NCBI GenBank assembly: GCA_018402545.1
Contig: JAGYIL010000002.1
Span: 310,001 to 374,000 of the forward strand
Source of the DNA: Saccharospirillum sp.
GTDB taxonomy: Bacteria; Pseudomonadota; Gammaproteobacteria; Pseudomonadales; Natronospirillaceae
Direction: 5' to 3'
DNA length: 64,000 bases
Below the pieces are notes generated by a model, which made no database searches, was not told where the DNA came from, and saw only the letters and a list, made by a program, of their open reading frames with translations. Below are positions 355 through 9,614 of the stretch, piece by piece (positions within the stretch are counted from its first letter, which is position 1; each line of letters opens with the position of its first letter). Position numbers and translations under genes: made by a program.

Positions 355-482
355 GGTGTTAATCCCCCATCCTGATTATTCCTTTTTCACCCATTCTTTC
401 AGTTCGGGTTACCAAAATACAGGCCGACTCCATCTCTGGCATAATGCCCTGGGTTTCCTATCATCGACCGGGTAAACGCTGT

Positions 483-1772
483 ATGGCATCGCCGAAAAGC
501 CTGATTTTCCAGCTGCATCGCCACTGGGAGGTCATTGAATTACTCTGCCGGCAATCCCGTGAATTGCCTGCCTTTGAGCAATCCCATTTGCTCGCGGTGA
601 TCGAGCGCTTTACTAATGCAGAAGACCCTACAGAACCGGCGGCCATTCTGCGTTCGCTGTGCGCGGCGGACTTGCTGCAACCCCTGAGTCGCTCTGACTA
701 TTTGCAAATCAACCCCCTAGTACTGGACTTCGTGCGTGGCCTGACCCGCGAGCATGAACTCGGCCTGTCGGCGGTGCTCAAGGCGCGTGTCGAAGCCGTT
801 CGCGAAGCCACGGCAACGCTGGCCGAGGGTATTGATGAACAGGATATGGACAAGGTGCGTACTGGGGCCGCGCGGCTGTCGGACCTGTTCCGGCAAATTG
901 CACGGCAACTGGATGCCGACCGACATGCCATTCTGGAACTGGCCGAAAAAGCCAAGGCCAGTGATGCCGCCATGCCCATCGCACGTCGCTACCGGGCGGT
1001 GTTGGATGCCTACGACCAGTACGTCGAGCCGATGAACGAAATGATGGACAGTGGCCTGGGCGGTACCTTTTACCCCCATCTCAAACTGGCGGTGCAAAAT
1101 CTGGATCGTGCCGAGGAGGCGCTGGCCATTCGCGGTGCGCTTTATACCCAGCGGCTTCAACTGCGCCAGGTCGCGCAACAGGCCAAGGAGCTGCGCCGAC
1201 TCGGGCGTCTGGTCGCCCTGCAATGTTCGGATACCCTGTTGCCTTTGCGTGAAGAGGCGCGCCAGCACAATGTGCTGTCCAGTGCGATCGGCGACCTGTT
1301 GGGCCAGGTGCGTAAGCGCGGTTTAAAAGCAGTGCTGCGCTCAGCACCTGGTCGCCCGAAGCTGCCCGGCTGGCAGCGTGAACGGCGCACCCTGGTGCAT
1401 CTGGGCGACGAGATTCGTACCCTGATGGCCGATGCAATGCGCTTTGAGCCCCGGGTGCAAACCTTCCCCGAGCCGGTGGAAAGCAGCCCGGCTGATCTGA
1501 GCGACTGGGTCGATGAACCTCGCTTGAAGCAGGCTCTCGCACAGGCGTTGCCTTTAGATAACCTGCTGCTCTGGATACAGCAGAACTACCCGCAACTGAA
1601 AGACGCCACTCTGTTGAGGCTTTATGATGAACTGGTGCGCGAGTCTGGCTGGGATGCCACTCTGACCCCGGATCAAACCCGCACCCCGTTGAAAGCCGTG
1701 CAGGTGGTGTACCATCCGCATCGACTGGATCCTGTCGTGAAGGAAGAGACCCGAGATGACTCAAGCCATTGA
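483..1772 (+). CDS. jetA: Wadjet system protein JetA (MukF/MksF-like kleisin)
   Basis: A protein of about 429 residues opening a four-gene overlapping operon. Its N-terminus (LIFQLHRHWEVIELLCRQS) and helical middle resemble the winged-helix and kleisin layout of MksF/JetA. In Wadjet, JetA bridges the JetC SMC heads and binds JetB, forming a loop-extruding complex that detects circular plasmid DNA. The assignment rests mainly on context: it precedes a small JetB/MksE-like gene, an SMC-like ATPase and a TOPRIM nuclease. An upstream ATG at 444 is in frame, but it overlaps a CATAAT -10-like hexamer (440-445), so 483 (MASPKS...) is preferred. No good Shine-Dalgarno is visible for either. It overlaps jetB by 17 bases. 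Confidence 0.8.
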   Translation: MASPKSLIFQLHRHWEVIELLCRQSRELPAFEQSHLLAVIERFTNAEDPTEPAAILRSLCAADLLQPLSRSDYLQINPLVLDFVRGLTREHELGLSAVLKARVEAVREATATLAEGIDEQDMDKVRTGAARLSDLFRQIARQLDADRHAILELAEKAKASDAAMPIARRYRAVLDAYDQYVEPMNEMMDSGLGGTFYPHLKLAVQNLDRAEEALAIRGALYTQRLQLRQVAQQAKELRRLGRLVALQCSDTLLPLREEARQHNVLSSAIGDLLGQVRKRGLKAVLRSAPGRPKLPGWQRERRTLVHLGDEIRTLMADAMRFEPRVQTFPEPVESSPADLSDWVDEPRLKQALAQALPLDNLLLWIQQNYPQLKDATLLRLYDELVRESGWDATLTPDQTRTPLKAVQVVYHPHRLDPVVKEETRDDSSH

Positions 1773-2337
1773 TCTGGCTCGGCTGCCGAATGTGGCCGAG
1801 CTGTTCAAACTGTTCAACAGTGGCAAACACCTGAACCGTTTGTCCGACGCCGCCCTGTGGGCCGATCTGGAACAGCAGAGCGACGCCTATACCGCCCTGT
1901 TTCGGGCGCTGGGCTATGAACTGCGCATCGACGGGCGGGGCTTTGCCTGGTTTCATACCGACGAGAAAAGCGCCACCCTAAGCCACCAGTCGCGCCAGCT
2001 GGCCCTGTTGTTTATGGTGATTTTCGATTCCCAGGCCGACGCCGGCAAAGCCCTGAGCCGATTCAGCGACTGGCCCATCGACCGGGCCTTGCTCACAGGT
2101 GCCTATGAGCAACATCAGGAACTGCTGCTGGCCGAAGGGCTGGATGTCGACGGCCTGCTGACCTTGCTTGAAAAAGCCGAAACCTTCGGGTTTGCCCGGC
2201 GTGAGGCCGGTCACTGGCAGTTATTGCCCGCTGTTTGCCGTTATCTCGATCACTTTGAAGCATTGGCCGAGCAGCACCGCGACGACGCCGAAGACGTCTT
2301 AGACAGCGAAGCAACACCGGATGAGGACAGCCAATGA
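1756..2337 (+). CDS. jetB: Wadjet system protein JetB (MksE-like)
   Basis: A 193-residue acidic helical protein, the usual size of the KITE subunit JetB/MksE that binds the JetA kleisin in condensin-like complexes. The N-terminal part (ELFKLFNSGKHLNRLSDAALWADLE) and the central LSHQSRQLALLFMVIFDSQ segment suit the paired winged-helix build of the family. Identification comes mainly from position between jetA and the SMC gene. It starts inside the end of jetA (17-base overlap) and its stop overlaps the jetC start in an ATGA, so the three proteins are probably translationally coupled and made in fixed ratio. The C-terminus is a charged tail (DDAEDVLDSEATPDEDS). Confidence 0.75.
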   Translation: MTQAIDLARLPNVAELFKLFNSGKHLNRLSDAALWADLEQQSDAYTALFRALGYELRIDGRGFAWFHTDEKSATLSHQSRQLALLFMVIFDSQADAGKALSRFSDWPIDRALLTGAYEQHQELLLAEGLDVDGLLTLLEKAETFGFARREAGHWQLLPAVCRYLDHFEALAEQHRDDAEDVLDSEATPDEDSQ

Positions 2338-5108
2338 TTCGCTACGGATTTCAGCGCCTGGCGTTACTCGGCAGCGCGGGCTATCAGCGCGCCGAACTGC
2401 CGCTGGATGATGCCGTCTCGCTGATTGCTCCGAACAACACCGGCAAAACCAGTCTGATCAACGCCCTGCAATTTCTGCTGATCATCGACCGCCGGCGCAT
2501 GGATTTCGGCTCTCATGAATTCGAGAAAACCCGCAAATTCTACTTTCCCAATAACAGCGCTTATATTCTGCTGGAAGTGATGCTGCCGCAAACCGGAACC
2601 GTCGTTTTTGGTTGCGTAGGCAAAGGCGCAAGTAATGAGTATGTCTACTTCGCTTATAAGGGTGAACTGAAACTGGGCGACTTCCGCCAGGCCGGGGATA
2701 CCTTGGTGCAGCAGCCAGACCTGATCACCCATCTGGCGGAAAAGGGGCGCACCGTCTTCCAGTACGACGCCACCGACTTCGCCAAACTGATCTATGGCGG
2801 CAGCCAGAAGCGACGCAGCGTCGAGCCGGACTTCACCGTCTTCAAACTGGAAAACCCCTCCGATGCCCGGGTCTTCCAGCAGGTGCTGACCCGCACCTTG
2901 CGGCTCGACAAGCTCACTTCGGCCGATGTCAAAACCTACTTGCTGCAAATATTCCGCCGCGACCTGCCCGATGCCGGTATCGACTTTAAACAGGAGTGGG
3001 ACAAGGCCTTTCACGACGTCAATGCCGACAGAGCCCAATATCTGGCCGCCAAAAACCAGCTCAAGCGCATCGAAACACTGGAACAGGCTTTTGAAGAACG
3101 TCTGACACTGCGCGGCAAACTCATCGACTGGCGGCCACGTATCGATGAAGGTCTGTCCCGCTGGCAAGCGCACTTTGATGATAAAATTAGCCAGTTAAAG
3201 GCAGAAGCAGACCACCTCAGAGAGCAGCAACAGGCGCAATCGGAGCGCATCAAAACCTTGGCTCGTGCTGAGCTTGACCTAGGCACGCAACTGAGCAAAC
3301 TGAAAGAAGACGACACCCGGCAGAGTGCCCTGCAACAACAATTCGCCCTGGTTTCTGATCGCGCTGTGCTGGAGCAGCAGTACCAGCAGGCAACCGCTGA
3401 ACTGGAAAAAATCACCGCCATTCTGACCCAGGCCGATGGCCGCCCACCGGCCGTCATTGAGCGCGCATTGAAAGAAGCAGAGCGACGCCTGCAAACGCTG
3501 ACGCAGCAGAAACGCAACCTTAACGACAACCTCTACCTGGCGCTGAGCCAGCAGTTGTCAGCCGAAGACGCCGACAGGCTAAACCGCGCACTGAATGGCC
3601 AGGCCATGGTGCTGGCGGCCGATGCCTTCGCGCTGGATGCGTCGGCACTGCGCAGTGCCTTGCAGAGCACCTCGTCAGAGCGACTGAAACTCGCCGGGCT
3701 CGACGTGTCGCTGAACGAGCTCAGCCCGCAACATCAGCAACTCACACCCGCCGAACTCGACGAACAGATCACCGACACCGAACGTCAGCTCGCCGGTCTG
3801 GCACAGCAGCTTGAGGCCGCCCACTCACTGCAACAGACCCGGGAGCGCAAGGCGGCGCTGGCTAAAGAATGCCGGGCGCGGGAACAGGATCTGGCCGACT
3901 ACGATCAACTACAAACGCTGATTCAGCGCGAACCCGAACGGCAACAAGAGCAACACCGGCTGAGCGCCGAACTGGAAACGGTGGTACACCAACTGGCCAC
4001 GGCCAACGAACACAGCGACCAGGTGCAGGCACGGGTCAGAGAAAACGACCGTGAACAGGACAACCTGCAGCGGGATCACCGCGCCATCGACCAGTTACGC
4101 GATACCCGGACCGACACTGCTGAGGAGTTCAGCTACCTCGACGCCCTGGACCACCACAAATGGCTGGGCGAAACAGACTGGCCGTTGTCGCAACTGGCCG
4201 ACAAGCTGCAGCAGTACCAGCGGGACTGCAAAGCCCTGCAACAGCTCAACCGGGAGCTGAGCGCAGGCCTTGCGGAACTCCATGCCGGCGGGCTAACCAA
4301 ATATCAGTACAGCGATTCCCGCGACCTGGAACTCAAGCGCATTATCGACTTCAGCCATCAACTGCCACGGGAGCAGGAAGCGCTGGAGAAGAAAGCGCGC
4401 AGTGCCGTGGTGAATGTGACGGCCAGCTTGCGGGAACTGCGCGACGGGCTGTTAAGCTTCCAGAGCAAGATGAACAGCTTTAACCGCTTGATAGGCCATC
4501 GCCAATTGTCCGACCTGGCCATCTTCAAGATTGATGCAGAAGACGAGCAGCACCTGGTAGACGCCATCGATGTGCTGATCGACAAGGCCAACCAGGTCGA
4601 TACCGGCGACAGTTTTGAACTGTTCAACCAGGCCAGTGTGCTCGACGACGCCAAACTCGACCGCGCCAAGCAGATACTGATCGACGAAGGCAATGCCCGC
4701 CAGGGCCTGAAAGTCGCCGACCTGTTCCGGCTGGTGTTTGTGGTGGGCAAGAAAGACCAGAAACCCGAATCCTTTGAAGAAATCGACAGCGCCGCCTCCA
4801 ACGGCACCGTGCTGATGGCCAAGCTGGTCACCGGGCTTGCCATGCTGCACCTGATGCAGGACAAACGCCACGCCCTGCATGCCATCTGCTACCTCGATGA
4901 AGCCCTGGCACTCGACAGCCGCAACCAGACCAGCCTTATCGCCACCGCACAGGACTTCGGGTTCGCGCTGATCTTCGCCTCACCGGCCCCCCTGACCACG
5001 GTGCGCTACTGCGTGCCCATTCATCACCACCAGGGGCAAAATCACATTAGCCAGCAAAGCTGGCAGATTCTGGAACCGCTGGACAGCGCCGTCGGTACCA
5101 CCGCATGA
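2334..5108 (+). CDS. jetC: Wadjet system SMC-like ATPase JetC (MukB/MksB-like)
   Basis: A 924-residue SMC/MukB-type ATPase. The N-terminal head carries a P-loop APNNTGKTS at residues 32-40. Long Gln/Glu/Arg-rich coiled-coil segments occupy roughly residues 225-700. The C-terminal head has a signature-like ASNGTVLMAKL and a Walker B CYLDE with the Asp-Glu pair at 855-856. In Wadjet this motor extrudes DNA loops, and the complex cleaves small circular DNA via JetD. Two oddities: the first Gly of the usual GxxxxGK[ST] loop is Ala, and the protein is shorter than the roughly 1,100 residues I expect for better-known JetC proteins, implying short coiled-coil arms. It overlaps jetB and jetD by ATGA. 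The subtype (I, II or III) cannot be settled from sequence alone. Confidence 0.85.
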   Translation: MIRYGFQRLALLGSAGYQRAELPLDDAVSLIAPNNTGKTSLINALQFLLIIDRRRMDFGSHEFEKTRKFYFPNNSAYILLEVMLPQTGTVVFGCVGKGASNEYVYFAYKGELKLGDFRQAGDTLVQQPDLITHLAEKGRTVFQYDATDFAKLIYGGSQKRRSVEPDFTVFKLENPSDARVFQQVLTRTLRLDKLTSADVKTYLLQIFRRDLPDAGIDFKQEWDKAFHDVNADRAQYLAAKNQLKRIETLEQAFEERLTLRGKLIDWRPRIDEGLSRWQAHFDDKISQLKAEADHLREQQQAQSERIKTLARAELDLGTQLSKLKEDDTRQSALQQQFALVSDRAVLEQQYQQATAELEKITAILTQADGRPPAVIERALKEAERRLQTLTQQKRNLNDNLYLALSQQLSAEDADRLNRALNGQAMVLAADAFALDASALRSALQSTSSERLKLAGLDVSLNELSPQHQQLTPAELDEQITDTERQLAGLAQQLEAAHSLQQTRERKAALAKECRAREQDLADYDQLQTLIQREPERQQEQHRLSAELETVVHQLATANEHSDQVQARVRENDREQDNLQRDHRAIDQLRDTRTDTAEEFSYLDALDHHKWLGETDWPLSQLADKLQQYQRDCKALQQLNRELSAGLAELHAGGLTKYQYSDSRDLELKRIIDFSHQLPREQEALEKKARSAVVNVTASLRELRDGLLSFQSKMNSFNRLIGHRQLSDLAIFKIDAEDEQHLVDAIDVLIDKANQVDTGDSFELFNQASVLDDAKLDRAKQILIDEGNARQGLKVADLFRLVFVVGKKDQKPESFEEIDSAASNGTVLMAKLVTGLAMLHLMQDKRHALHAICYLDEALALDSRNQTSLIATAQDFGFALIFASPAPLTTVRYCVPIHHHQGQNHISQQSWQILEPLDSAVGTTA

Positions 5109-5989
5109 ACCGTCCGCTCGCTGCCGCCCTGCAAAAACTGCTCAGCGCCGAGGGCGGCCAGCTGTCGGCTTCAGACCTGACGCCGGCACAGCAACGTGCC
5201 CTCGACGAGTTTCGCCAGCGCACCGGGGCCCTGATGCAACAGCGCAGTGGCCGTGGTCGTATTTTTCGCATTGTGCTTCGCCGCGTGGTTGAACAGCACC
5301 TGACCGAACTCGCCCCGCTGGCCGGAATCGATTTGGCCGATACCCTGCCGGAGCGCGCCGCCAATATTGGTCGCACCCGTTCCAGCAAAAGCGGCAAACA
5401 GGGCCACGACGTTCACTACCTGCTGCTCAAGACACGGGGCCAGCCCCTGTGGCAAAACAACCTCGGCCAACGTCTGGATCTGGACGAACAGACCCGAAAC
5501 CAGGGCGCGGCCGTGCTCACCATTGGCTCCGAAGCGCATTCTGTCTGGCACACGCGCAACCCGCTCTGGCTGGTCGAAAACCAGGCCCTGTTCGACAAGA
5601 CAGACTGGATACCCGGAACCGAACCCCTAACCCTTGGCTGGTACAGTGGCCACCTGCGTATACAACTCATCGACTGGCTGGCAAAGCAGACAGAGGGCAC
5701 AGTCACCCTATTTCCAGACTATGATGGTGTGGGGCTACACAATTATGTGCGTTTGAAGCAATACCTTGGCTCGCGCGCCCGTTTTTGGCTGATGCCTGAC
5801 TGGAAAGACAAACTGCTTCGCTTTGGCAGCAACTCGCTCTGGCAAGATACACAGAAGGACTTTCAGGCCGCCGCGCGAGGGCTTGAGGGAATACTCGGGG
5901 ATGAGCCTGACCTGAAGCACCTCATCGACACCATGCAAGCCAATGGGCTGGCGTTGGAGCAGGAAGCCATTTGGCTGGAGAGTCTCTGA
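5105..5989 (+). CDS. jetD: Wadjet system TOPRIM nuclease JetD
   Basis: A 294-residue protein with a C-terminal TOPRIM fold: LWLVENQALF supplies the catalytic Glu (E159) and LFPDYDGVG the DxD pair (D205, D207). JetD is the nuclease that cuts plasmid DNA after JetABC loop extrusion stalls. The N-terminal 110 residues (basic, with RTRSSKSGKQG near residues 90-100) are probably the arm that contacts DNA or JetABC. It is shorter than the roughly 380-residue JetD of well-known systems. Its ATG overlaps the jetC stop (ATGA). The catalytic acids are intact, so the system is likely functional. No obvious terminator follows before the lipocalin gene 73 bases downstream. Confidence 0.82.
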   Translation: MNRPLAAALQKLLSAEGGQLSASDLTPAQQRALDEFRQRTGALMQQRSGRGRIFRIVLRRVVEQHLTELAPLAGIDLADTLPERAANIGRTRSSKSGKQGHDVHYLLLKTRGQPLWQNNLGQRLDLDEQTRNQGAAVLTIGSEAHSVWHTRNPLWLVENQALFDKTDWIPGTEPLTLGWYSGHLRIQLIDWLAKQTEGTVTLFPDYDGVGLHNYVRLKQYLGSRARFWLMPDWKDKLLRFGSNSLWQDTQKDFQAAARGLEGILGDEPDLKHLIDTMQANGLALEQEAIWLESL

Positions 5990-6662: not shown

Positions 6663-8852
6663 TTAGTCAATCACGCAAACAAACTCTCCCACCACCCGGT
6701 ACCGCAAAGCTTCGTCTTCTGTCAGTTCAAGGGGCTGAAAGCTGTCTTCATGTGAATTGGGGTTTAACTGAATAAGGGTATGGTACCAGCCGTGCTTGTT
6801 TTCAGTTTTGAAACTTTTATAAACTTTGACGGTATATCGGGAGCCTGAGTCGGCATCTATGGTGTCGATACATTCCACCAGGACCGTTTTTCCGTTTCTA
6901 CTTCCACCTCTATCGGAACGGAACAGACACAGAGTACCATTGGCGATTACACGATTCATGGATTCACCGACAACCCGGCAGGCAAACATTCCCTCCTGAG
7001 GCCGGATACCATCGGGTACGGCAACCCAGTCTCTGTGTTCAGCGGTCTGAACGTCGCTGAAATCACCGGCCGCTGCTTGTAGGTCAAAAACAGGTACCGA
7101 ATTGACGTAAGGTACCAGTTCTACCATGTCCCCGGTTTCAGACCCGGGTCTGGTATCGGTGTGACGTGGGATATGCTGTTTGAAGTATTCTCGTAGCGCA
7201 TCGTCGCAGGCGTACAAAAAAGTGCCGCTAATGCCTCGCAACATGATAGTCCGGTAAATATTGATGATGTATTGCTTCAACTCTTCCGGATTCTTGATAC
7301 CTTGTCCGCCATTCCGATCGCAGTATCGGTCCCTGTCTATCAAAATGGACTGAGTGTCCCGGTCGTACCGGATCTCTTCTCCGAATATGATACCCGCGTA
7401 GTTCAGGTCGTAGCCCTGAGTGGTATGAATACAGCCCACTTCTTTGTGGGAGTCTTTCTTGTTGATCCAGTCGGTGTTGGTGCTGTTCCAGCGCAGTTGA
7501 ACGTCGCCAATAGTAATGTCATAAGCGGTGCTGTCTTTTTTGGATGCCCATGGCCATGAATAACCGGCGATGAGGCGAGACAGCCCGACCTGATGTTCCT
7601 TTTGATTGATGGTGTTGATCATTTCGTCGAGCGAGTCGAAAACCTTAAGTTCATAGTTATCGAAGGTAAGGATGGACTCATCGGTAACTCGGCAATTTAG
7701 CAGGTTGTCTACAAATTCTACATAAGGTTGTCCGGCCTTGACCCGGAACTGTGACAACAACTGATGTGTCACCGACTCCCTGTCTGCTTTGAGGCGTTGA
7801 AAAACCTCACCATCGGTATCAGAGGGTTTGATGGATTGCCCCTGGTCGTAAAAGAAAATGGCTTTGTTGGCTTGCTTGCATACCCATTCCACTTCGCTGC
7901 AATGGTGCTTGTCCATGCCCAGTAAGGCACAGGTCTTGTCAAAGTTGCCGAAATAGGCGCCCAGATTCTTTCGTTTTCGCAACCGGTGGGACTCGTCCAC
8001 TAGAACAATATCGTAGTGTTGTCGAGCAAGTTCTGATGGACTGATGACCATGCTTGGGCTGAGACCCGAAACGTGTTTGAAGGCTTTTTTCAAGGTGGTC
8101 CGGAATGAAGTCATCGGCACCACCAGTGCCATCTTCGGGTTTGGCATCGCTTGCCTGAGTGATGTCAGCAGCGTTCGTATCTCCGCCTCTTCATCGGAGA
8201 ATTCCCGTAAATCAAATGTGTTGTCTTGCGAGTTGAGCAGTTTGAACAAAAAGATCGCCAGAACGGATTTTCCGGTTCCGGCGCCCCCTTCCACCACGAT
8301 GTTTTTCACTCCGGGATTCAACAGCTCATGCATGATGGTAAGCAAACCCTGGCGCTGATCGAAAGACAGTGTTTTATAAGGGGAGTACTTGAACACATCC
8401 GAGTTATCGAGGTGGTCCAGAGTGCGGGATACCACACCAAGAGCAATCAACCGGTTCCAGACTTCCCGAAATACGTCGTCGTAGAGCGCATCCCTCTGGT
8501 AATAGTTGTGATCCGCAAGTCCAAGATTGCCGTTAAGTAGAGTGTATTTGCCATCAGCAGCCATGTATTTGATCAGCATCGATTCCACGTCCAACGTGGC
8601 GGATTTGTTGAAATATTCGCTGGTGATCAGATGAACGGCAGTCAGCAATTGTTTTTCGTCGTGCTTGAGGTGCGTGCTCATGCGCGTGAGCGTGTCAGTG
8701 GTTTCGCCAATGTAAGCGCGCAACTGCGCCTCGTCACTGATGAGGTACACCAAAGGCCAGTTGCCAGAGGCGAAAGCGTTGTGGCGCAAATCGTCCAGAG
8801 CTCTCCGACTGAATGGAAAGCGCTGAACCTCCACCATGGGGGAGCGGCTCAT
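6663..8852 (-). CDS. GIY-YIG nuclease / Schlafen-group-3-like helicase (DUF2075) / S24 LexA-like protease fusion
   Basis: A 729-residue three-part protein. (1) The GIY-YIG nuclease has VYLISD at 35-40, AYIGET at 46-51 and the conserved Glu as E90 (LDVESMLIKYM). (2) The DUF2075 / Schlafen-group-3-like helicase has Walker A GGAGTGKS (189-196) and Walker B DIVLVDES (281-288). The GCIHTTQGYDLNYAG segment resembles a superfamily 1 helicase motif. (3) The C-terminal S24 domain has VPVFDLQAAAGDF, then GESM (S631) and TVKVY (K676), which fit the LexA/UmuD Ser-Lys dyad. An Ala595-Gly596 bond sits where LexA-type proteins self-cleave. The start overlaps the MazG-like stop (ATGA), so the two are one operon. 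By eye it is more AT-rich than its neighbours, suggesting transfer. A defence or damage-response role is inferred. Confidence 0.85.
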   Translation of the reverse strand: MSRSPMVEVQRFPFSRRALDDLRHNAFASGNWPLVYLISDEAQLRAYIGETTDTLTRMSTHLKHDEKQLLTAVHLITSEYFNKSATLDVESMLIKYMAADGKYTLLNGNLGLADHNYYQRDALYDDVFREVWNRLIALGVVSRTLDHLDNSDVFKYSPYKTLSFDQRQGLLTIMHELLNPGVKNIVVEGGAGTGKSVLAIFLFKLLNSQDNTFDLREFSDEEAEIRTLLTSLRQAMPNPKMALVVPMTSFRTTLKKAFKHVSGLSPSMVISPSELARQHYDIVLVDESHRLRKRKNLGAYFGNFDKTCALLGMDKHHCSEVEWVCKQANKAIFFYDQGQSIKPSDTDGEVFQRLKADRESVTHQLLSQFRVKAGQPYVEFVDNLLNCRVTDESILTFDNYELKVFDSLDEMINTINQKEHQVGLSRLIAGYSWPWASKKDSTAYDITIGDVQLRWNSTNTDWINKKDSHKEVGCIHTTQGYDLNYAGIIFGEEIRYDRDTQSILIDRDRYCDRNGGQGIKNPEELKQYIINIYRTIMLRGISGTFLYACDDALREYFKQHIPRHTDTRPGSETGDMVELVPYVNSVPVFDLQAAAGDFSDVQTAEHRDWVAVPDGIRPQEGMFACRVVGESMNRVIANGTLCLFRSDRGGSRNGKTVLVECIDTIDADSGSRYTVKVYKSFKTENKHGWYHTLIQLNPNSHEDSFQPLELTEDEALRYRVVGEFVCVID

Positions 8853-9169
8853 AGATCTGTGTACTTCTTGGCGATGCCCCTGGCTTTGCTGATGGGGTAT
8901 TTCTGTTCGTTCACTGCGATCTTGTCGAGAATGATCTGTTCCACATCCAGGTCATAGCTGTCTGCAAGCAACAGTGCGTAGGCAAGGACGTCTGCCAGCT
9001 CTTCCCTTATTTTGCTTGTGTCGGCCTGTTCCGGCGACTTCCAGAGGAAGACTTCCAATAGCTCCGCTGCCTCTATACTCAGGGCCAGGGACAGATCCTT
9101 GGGGTTGTGAAACTGCTTCCAGTCTCTGTCATCCCGAAACTGACGCAATCGGGCAATAGCCTCTTTCAT
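8849..9169 (-). CDS. MazG-like nucleotide pyrophosphohydrolase
   Basis: A 106-residue all-alpha NTP pyrophosphohydrolase of the MazG superfamily. Metal-binding motifs are visible: SIEAAELLEVFLW (E33, E36) and REELADVLAY (E57, D60), the ExxE...ExxD pattern. Such enzymes hydrolyse (d)NTPs to monophosphate and pyrophosphate and act as house-cleaning or nucleotide-depleting enzymes. ATG at 9169 is chosen over the in-frame TTG at 9172 because GGGGGA lies about 6 bases upstream. Its stop overlaps the start of the nuclease-helicase-protease fusion (ATGA), so the two proteins are translationally coupled. In that setting a role as nucleotide-pool effector or as a partner in phage defence is a reasonable inference, not shown. 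Confidence 0.85.
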   Translation of the reverse strand: MKEAIARLRQFRDDRDWKQFHNPKDLSLALSIEAAELLEVFLWKSPEQADTSKIREELADVLAYALLLADSYDLDVEQIILDKIAVNEQKYPISKARGIAKKYTDL

Positions 9170-9614
9170 CAAGGTCCCCCTTTTGGGTGCAACGGACGGT
9201 AGCTACACAGCTTCAAATGAGTCCGTGAAGCTTGGATCCAGAACATTAGCAGATTTATCAAGGATACAGATACCCATGTGTCTCCTTGGTTAGCCGTGCG
9301 CTAATGCCCATTTAATAAGGCCTTATGAATCTGTTTCCGGTGAAAAGGCCCGTAGGCCATTGCAGCTGGGAGTCGAAATGGCCCTGGGCTCAGGGCCATT
9401 ACCTTTCGGGGCTTGCGCCGTTTTTGTAAGTGAGTTCCTGATTGTCGCCCTACCAGCTGGCTTCAATGAGTTGCTGGTCGATCAGTAACCTGGTGAGCTC
9501 ATTATTCAGCGCCAGGGTACCGCTGGCTGCCCTGAATGGGCAGTCAGCCAGTGTTCGATGTTACCGGTTTAGAGACAGCCTATAGCAGTCTTCCCGGGAT
9601 GCCACCGTGGGTGT
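9170..9614. other. intergenic gap of about 445 bp between MazG-like and CNNM genes
   Basis: No convincing complete gene was found. The part nearest 9170 must hold the promoter of the minus-strand MazG-helicase operon, but I could not pick clear -35/-10 hexamers. A perfect hairpin sits at 9377-9400. On the minus strand, 9450-9560 is an open frame of 36 codons without a start codon, ending at a TAG; it may be a gene remnant or chance. Presumably the end of the accessory block lies here, since housekeeping-type genes follow. Confidence 0.4.
9377..9400. terminator. perfect 10-bp-stem hairpin, possible terminator
   Basis: AATGGCCCTG and CAGGGCCATT pair perfectly around a 4-base loop (GGCT). No T-tract follows on either strand, so it is at best a weak or Rho-assisted terminator or an mRNA-end stabiliser. 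It lies in the gap between the accessory block and the CNNM gene. Confidence 0.35.

Follow-up and report, generated by a model that had tools for sequence, protein, structure and literature searches.

A GIY-YIG/Schlafen-type helicase fusion ending in a LexA-like S24 module, with a MazG-like partner: a possible self-limiting defence cassette in Saccharospirillum

A stretch of 64,000 nucleotides from a Saccharospirillum sp. assembly (contig JAGYIL010000002.1, positions 310,001 to 374,000; hereafter the window) carries on its minus strand a two-gene unit in which a MazG-like gene runs into a gene for a 729-residue protein joining a GIY-YIG nuclease, a Schlafen group 3 (SLFN-g3) helicase and a C-terminal S24 module. 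The evidence described here is computational throughout. The reading we favour, at somewhat less than even confidence, is that the pair is a restriction-type defence cassette in which self-cleavage of the S24 module would eliminate the nuclease once the host's own DNA is endangered, in effect an off switch. With slightly more reserve we also propose that this LexA-like module is portable, since five or more kinds of restriction or defence nuclease carry it (GIY-YIG-SLFN, PD-(D/E)XK-like-SLFN, HsdR, type III Res and HNH), and that its autocleavage may expose a degron for ClpXP, so that DNA damage would alleviate restriction without transcription. It has long been asked what stops restriction enzymes from killing the cell that makes them once its DNA is damaged. 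If the proposal is true, the link between damage and immunity would be accessible to single-residue mutants (S631, K676, G596), and one mechanism would be common to several classes of defence nuclease.

The two-gene unit and its S24 module

Open reading frame (ORF) calls and translation confirmed both minus-strand genes, the fusion with an ATG start. ORFs, Pfam matches and key residues agreed on the three-domain fusion beside a MazG-like gene that a first-pass annotation of this DNA had described, and the stop/start overlap (ATGA) that it had reported between the two genes was found at bases 8849-8852. The features are as follows.

8849..9169 (8849..9172 if the start is TTG), minus strand: MazG-like gene of the dCTP-pyrophosphatase type, 106 residues from its ATG (Pfam, matches in the PDB, invariant residues)
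8849..8852, minus strand: ATGA overlap of the MazG stop and the fusion start (sequence)
6663..8852, minus strand: GIY-YIG/SLFN-g3 helicase/S24 fusion, 729 residues (ORF and Pfam)
8508..8771, minus strand: GIY-YIG nuclease domain, about residues 28-115 (Pfam match below cut-off, invariant key residues)
7203..8303, minus strand: SLFN-g3 helicase domain, residues 184-550, with GGAGTGKS and LVDESHR (Pfam, 217.9 bits; motifs)
6666..7109, minus strand: S24 (LexA-like) module, residues 582-729 (Pfam and alignments)
7065..7070, minus strand: bond at which self-cleavage is predicted, Ala595-Gly596 in DLQAAAGDF (19 of 20 modules have Ala-Ala-Gly; aligned with AAGE of LexA at a weak overall score)
6960..6962, minus strand: codon of Ser631 (GESMN), kept in 20 of 20 modules
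6825..6827, minus strand: codon of Lys676 (YTVKVY), kept in 20 of 20 modules

The S24 module of the fusion passed the Pfam cut-off for Peptidase_S24 (E 2.7e-5, 24.3 bits against 23.3, residues 588-679); in all eight fusions scanned the cut-off was passed. On sequence grounds the approximately 150 C-terminal residues are a distinct S24 family. We collected 20 modules, 11 on GIY-SLFN proteins, four on PD-(D/E)XK-like SLFN proteins, three on HsdR-type proteins (L014, L016, L027) and one each on a type III Res subunit (L028) and an HNH nuclease (L012); a decayed S24 remnant (L015) and a module truncated where its contig stops (L061) were excluded. The catalytic Ser and Lys of LexA (S631 and K676 in the fusion) were kept in every module across the five partner kinds, and the Ala-Ala-Gly cleavage site in 19, including the fusion. 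Profile matches were rare: 9 of 369 genomes of the class below 1e-14 (including one remnant and one cut module), 5 of 398 genomes of a phylum sample below 1e-18, and 2 of 78 in the class of G426, both at loci already in the set. The nine matches in the class, obtained with alignment A5 from up to ten scored candidates per genome, included no ordinary LexA or UmuD, in keeping with a family separate from these.

With LexA, UmuD and lambda CI, its best Foldseek neighbours, the module shares the Ser and Lys and the Ala-Gly site; it differs in standing at the C terminus of nuclease motors rather than on a DNA-binding domain. Its cleavage site and Ser aligned with LexA, including the LexA of this genome (RVAAGEP..GLSMK..VTVKRY). 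In a Foldseek search, taken as support only, with a low-confidence AlphaFold model of the module (predicted local distance difference test score, pLDDT, 56) the top 27 matches were LexA, lambda repressor or UmuD, at template modelling (TM) scores of 0.26-0.46.

The helicase domain was matched with E 3.1e-64 (217.9 bits against a cut-off of 24), and its Walker motifs are present in the translation. The GIY-YIG match (E 3.3e-4, residues 34-81) fell short of the Pfam cut-off at 21.3 against 22.6 bits. This assignment is upheld despite the weak score because Y36, Y47, G49, R57, H61, E90 and N107 are invariant across 15 GIY-type proteins, three from Bacillota among them (two alignments of 8 and 11 rows with 4 in common); these include the Tyr, Tyr, Gly, Arg, Glu and Asn set of GIY-YIG nucleases. 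Four relatives (L010, L011, L018, L053) keep the helicase, S24 module and MazG and carry a different N-terminal domain with the pattern VDFILTG..VELKQW, which by eye resembles a PD-(D/E)XK-like nuclease; no Pfam model matched this domain in L010 or L011. Helicase trees were poorly resolved, and the two lineages were compared by identity: the helicase cores of S24-bearing GIY and PD-(D/E)XK-like proteins are 28.4-32.2% identical (28 pairs) and their S24 modules 38.5-51.0% (32 pairs). The higher identity of the modules, together with the absence of the module from L013, a member of the PD-(D/E)XK-like lineage, suggests that gain, loss or exchange affects the module as one unit, or that it evolves more slowly under constraint.

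On restriction enzymes proper, three proteins (L027, the L014 protein in L050 and the L016 protein in L055) combine HSDR_N, SWI2_SNF2 and a T1R_D3-like domain with S24. L055 encodes a type I restriction-modification system, with HsdR (HSDR_N, T1R_D3-like), MTase_I at 863 bits and Methylase_S at 36.1 bits; in the same locus (L055:218-9089) an OLD/Gabija-like ATPase gene lies between HsdS and the S24-ending HsdR. At L050:129-9968 the genes near that for HsdR-S24 include Methylase_S, a D12 adenine methyltransferase, an ORF that is ParB-like by eye and one whose product combines SLFN_AlbA_2 with a Fic-like domain at its C terminus. A Septu pair neighbours L027; the L028 protein is a Res subunit (477 bits), and its gene adjoins one for a type III methyltransferase. 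The HNH nuclease-S24 fusion at L049:9780-12402 adjoins an HTH_38 ORF with a weak integrase-core match, IS30-like by eye. A decayed S24 remnant at L063:3531-3860 stands beside a 782-residue ORF of no assigned kind.

A possible self-cleaving off switch

In the mechanism that we propose, the GIY-YIG/SLFN-g3 protein would, judging from its domains, move on and cut foreign or abnormal DNA, while the MazG-like partner would hydrolyse dCTP or C5-modified dCTP, as its homology suggests. The S24 module has the residues of a LexA-type autoprotease and may act as one: on meeting RecA-coated single-stranded DNA, or another cue of endangered host DNA, it would cut between Ala595 and Gly596 and split off the last 134 residues. 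The nuclease-motor would be left with an Ala-Ala end that could serve as an exposed degron for destruction by ClpXP. The outcome would be restriction alleviation encoded within the enzyme itself, and the same module may do likewise on HsdR, Res and HNH nucleases.

The N-terminal fragment of LexA (-VAA) and the ssrA tag (-LAA) both end in Ala-Ala and are destroyed by ClpXP. We favour an off switch because a LexA-type cut leaves an Ala-Ala end, as in the LexA fragment. The partners of the module also argue for it, all being restriction motors or nucleases (HSDR_N with SWI2_SNF2, type III Res, HNH). The first-pass annotation had assigned the protease the part of a switch. Both the conservation of the cleavage site and the presence of the module on HsdR, Res and HNH nucleases strengthen this idea for the predicted protease. 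DNA damage leads to suppression of type I enzymes (PMC3874165), and ClpXP acts on HsdR of EcoKI in restriction alleviation, where a degron was sought and not found (PMC4231737, PMC3874165).

Several observations weigh against this interpretation. Ala-Ala-Gly serves the cleavage itself and so gives no independent proof of a degron. Plasmid-induced alleviation of EcoKI needs neither SOS induction nor LexA cleavage (PMC11109961), which makes a RecA trigger an added assumption or a different route. Among 11 upstream regions no LexA/SOS box was conserved, the best being one single-mismatch site in L051, so that damage, if coupled to the cassette, would have to act after translation; SOS-box counts in the window (16) did not exceed the chance expectation (mean 22.66). 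The overall match of the module to LexA is weak: it scored only 11.5 bits against the LexA of this genome, S24 alignments A1 and A5 matched nothing in the PDB below 0.01, LexA (0.16) ranking after an unrelated chain (0.1), and a single Foldseek match fell below 0.001, from the model of pLDDT 56. A full-length AlphaFold model of the fusion reached a pLDDT of 41 and was not used. The three HsdR-S24 proteins are 83-88% identical and so represent one lineage, not three events. L028 has Val-Ala-Thr at the site, with Ala-Thr in place of the Ala-Gly bond, and the module is missing from L013 (58% identical to L011) and L021. The MazG gene is broken in two of 15 S24-bearing loci (G398, L018) and a remnant in G263, which suggests that MazG may be dispensable.

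The S24-less proteins also bear on the opposite arrangement, an activation switch in which the intact S24 module restrains the nuclease-motor until damage or a phage product provokes self-cleavage, which would free an active nuclease to destroy phage or host DNA in abortive infection. LexA, CI and UmuD all work through a state change released by cleavage, the same conserved residues would be used, and damage would be tied directly to defence. However, HsdR and Res subunits as a rule function without such a module, and L013 and L021 retain the remaining domains; the core therefore seems not to depend on release. An Ala-Ala end fits destruction better than release. We regard activation as unlikely. 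Slightly less probable again, in our estimate, is a module that does not cleave at all and serves for dimerisation, or for docking of RecA or an antirepressor-like signal, altering the enzyme without proteolysis. S24 C-terminal domains are known to dimerise, and L028 keeps the Ser and Lys without an Ala-Gly bond, but 19 of the 20 modules, across the five partner kinds, combine the cleavage site with both Ser and Lys.

The MazG-like partner and conservation of the pair

The MazG-like protein gave a Pfam match at E 1.1e-19, and its closest PDB structures were RS21-C6/dCTP pyrophosphatase 1 (1.7e-20). Residues E33, E36, E57, D60, W17 and W43 were invariant across all 11 aligned rows, among them the fragment from L018; we take these acidic and Trp residues to have the roles that they play in dCTP pyrophosphatases. 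By homology the protein is dCTP-pyrophosphatase-1-like, resembling DCTPP1/RS21-C6 in its MazG fold and in the acidic and Trp residues, and differing in being bacterial, in an operon with a nuclease-helicase and a dCTPase by prediction. The earlier suggestion that a MazG enzyme alters nucleotide pools could thereby be refined to this enzyme type.

The substrates of DCTPP1 include dCTP and its C5-modified forms (PMC7162842), and SauUSI cuts near 5-methyl- and 5-hydroxymethylcytosine (PMC12707154). SauUSI-like type IV enzymes adjoin the S24-less loci L021 (mREase_IV, 1150.7 bits) and L013 (308.3 bits, a partial ORF), a hint of modified-cytosine targeting; these enzymes differ from the fusion in being built from a PLD nuclease and a superfamily 2 helicase. 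MazG may keep modified cytosine out of host DNA, or starve phage of dCTP. A general partnership of MazG with DUF3427 enzymes was considered and rejected, MazG being near none of 14 DUF3427 loci (1.5-kb flanks around the domain).

In seven named relatives (five Marinobacter, Alcanivorax and Nitrincola) the MazG gene lies directly upstream, with 70-80% protein identity; gene order kept at this identity argues that the pair is more than chance and bears out the two-gene unit of the first-pass annotation. With five of the seven from Marinobacter, the host is probably close to that genus. MazG stands beside the helicase gene in all 15 S24-bearing SLFN loci examined (the window, L002-L008, G249, G495, G398, G271, G277, G426 and L018, a Halomonas plasmid); it precedes the helicase gene in most of these and lies downstream of it in G277 and L018. 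In L018 (9000-10100) the helicase-S24 junction and the MazG start are out of frame, possibly through sequencing error since the record carries almost no annotation. Among five S24-less proteins of the same kind, MazG is intact in L021, a 41-residue remnant in G263 (L013) and absent from three Bacillota plasmid loci (L017, L019, L020). Over S24-bearing and S24-less loci together it was found in 17 of 20, intact in 14.

An SLFN-g3 helicase was present in 15 of the 369 class genomes. Five are of the fusion's kind and have MazG (the G263 remnant included); in the other ten MazG was adjacent in none, its homologue being absent in five and located elsewhere in five. In its own genus the pair occurred in one of six genomes, that of the window, and its occurrence is sporadic.

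Matches to the whole fusion were found in 40 plasmid and 4 phage records, and the locus was viewed in 4 and 1 of these, respectively. The fusion profile gave no confirmed match in viral contigs. The S24 module of L028 matched no phage, and those of the window, L028 and L027 together matched one Halomonas plasmid record only among plasmids. Two runs of the S24 profile against phages and plasmids returned the same three loci. One of them, L029, encodes a 211-residue protein resembling a helix-turn-helix-S24 repressor; it was rejected as a member and dropped from all counts.

Named systems and genomic surroundings

The fusion is not represented by any model in PADLOC or NCBIfam: PADLOC gave partial matches to Nhi, AbiO and PDC-S14 and no full-length match, and NCBIfam gave nothing at 0.01. 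It shares its helicase family with PDC-S41, Nhi and AbiO; the match to Nhi is partial (46.8 bits, best stretch 277-420), and PDC-S41 was matched at full length by eight of nine other SLFN-g3 loci scanned (901-967 bits), from the genomes in which MazG is not adjacent. Type I HsdR and type III Res share with the fusion the logic of motor plus nuclease and, in some cases, the S24 module, whereas the window protein is a GIY-YIG nuclease with an SLFN-g3 motor; no HsdM, HsdS or other methyltransferase-system gene was seen among the neighbours scanned beside it. A literature search found nothing on the cassette, in line with the earlier statement that no published name was known; the queries were narrow and mostly combined several terms, so this absence is weak.

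Genes at 444-5989 of the window encode MksB/MksE/MksF-like proteins and a DUF7281 protein with weak similarity to JetD, a divergent MksBEF/Wadjet-like set. The set scored far below the NCBI equivalog cut-offs (MksF 353.9 against 1900 bits), and MksE passed that of Pfam. A lipocalin gene separates it from the cassette, and on the other side are genes for a CNNM-CBS protein, an iron-type ABC importer, a RelA/SpoT protein and a spermine/spermidine synthase. The description of the surroundings as a defence-like block was therefore overstated. A partnership with Wadjet was discarded, an ORF matching the MksBEF set of the window being present in none of the seven named 20-kb loci.

These mostly housekeeping neighbours would suit a unit for DNA repair and nucleotide sanitation, in which the helicase-nuclease processes damage, MazG cleans dCTP pools and S24 ends the response. 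In L003, L004, L005 and L008 the pair likewise has one and the same gene upstream, that for the glycyl-tRNA synthetase beta subunit (around 8400-9000; Pfam on the L004 copy), an arrangement that, with varied genes on the other side, could also mark an insertion hot spot. We consider a repair unit quite improbable: the pair is sporadic (one of six genomes in the genus, with the S24 module in nine of 369 in the class), some relatives adjoin AbiE, ThsB-type TIR or type IV genes, and the S24 module is common to type I and type III restriction enzymes.

A position near defence genes, as the first-pass annotation had envisaged, holds for part of the set. G277 (L046) has as neighbours AbiEi, two genes for TIR proteins of the ThsB type and a match to a phospholipase effector, L018 has AbiEii and L006 an HNH endonuclease, in addition to the SauUSI-like enzymes of L013 and L021; since these neighbours were picked by eye, they show occurrence and not enrichment. 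At L021:3459-8710, on a contig filed as phage, the SauUSI-like type IV enzyme, MazG and the GIY-YIG-SLFN gene are co-directional, with an overlap of 20 bases between MazG and the nuclease if the latter starts at ATG 6968.

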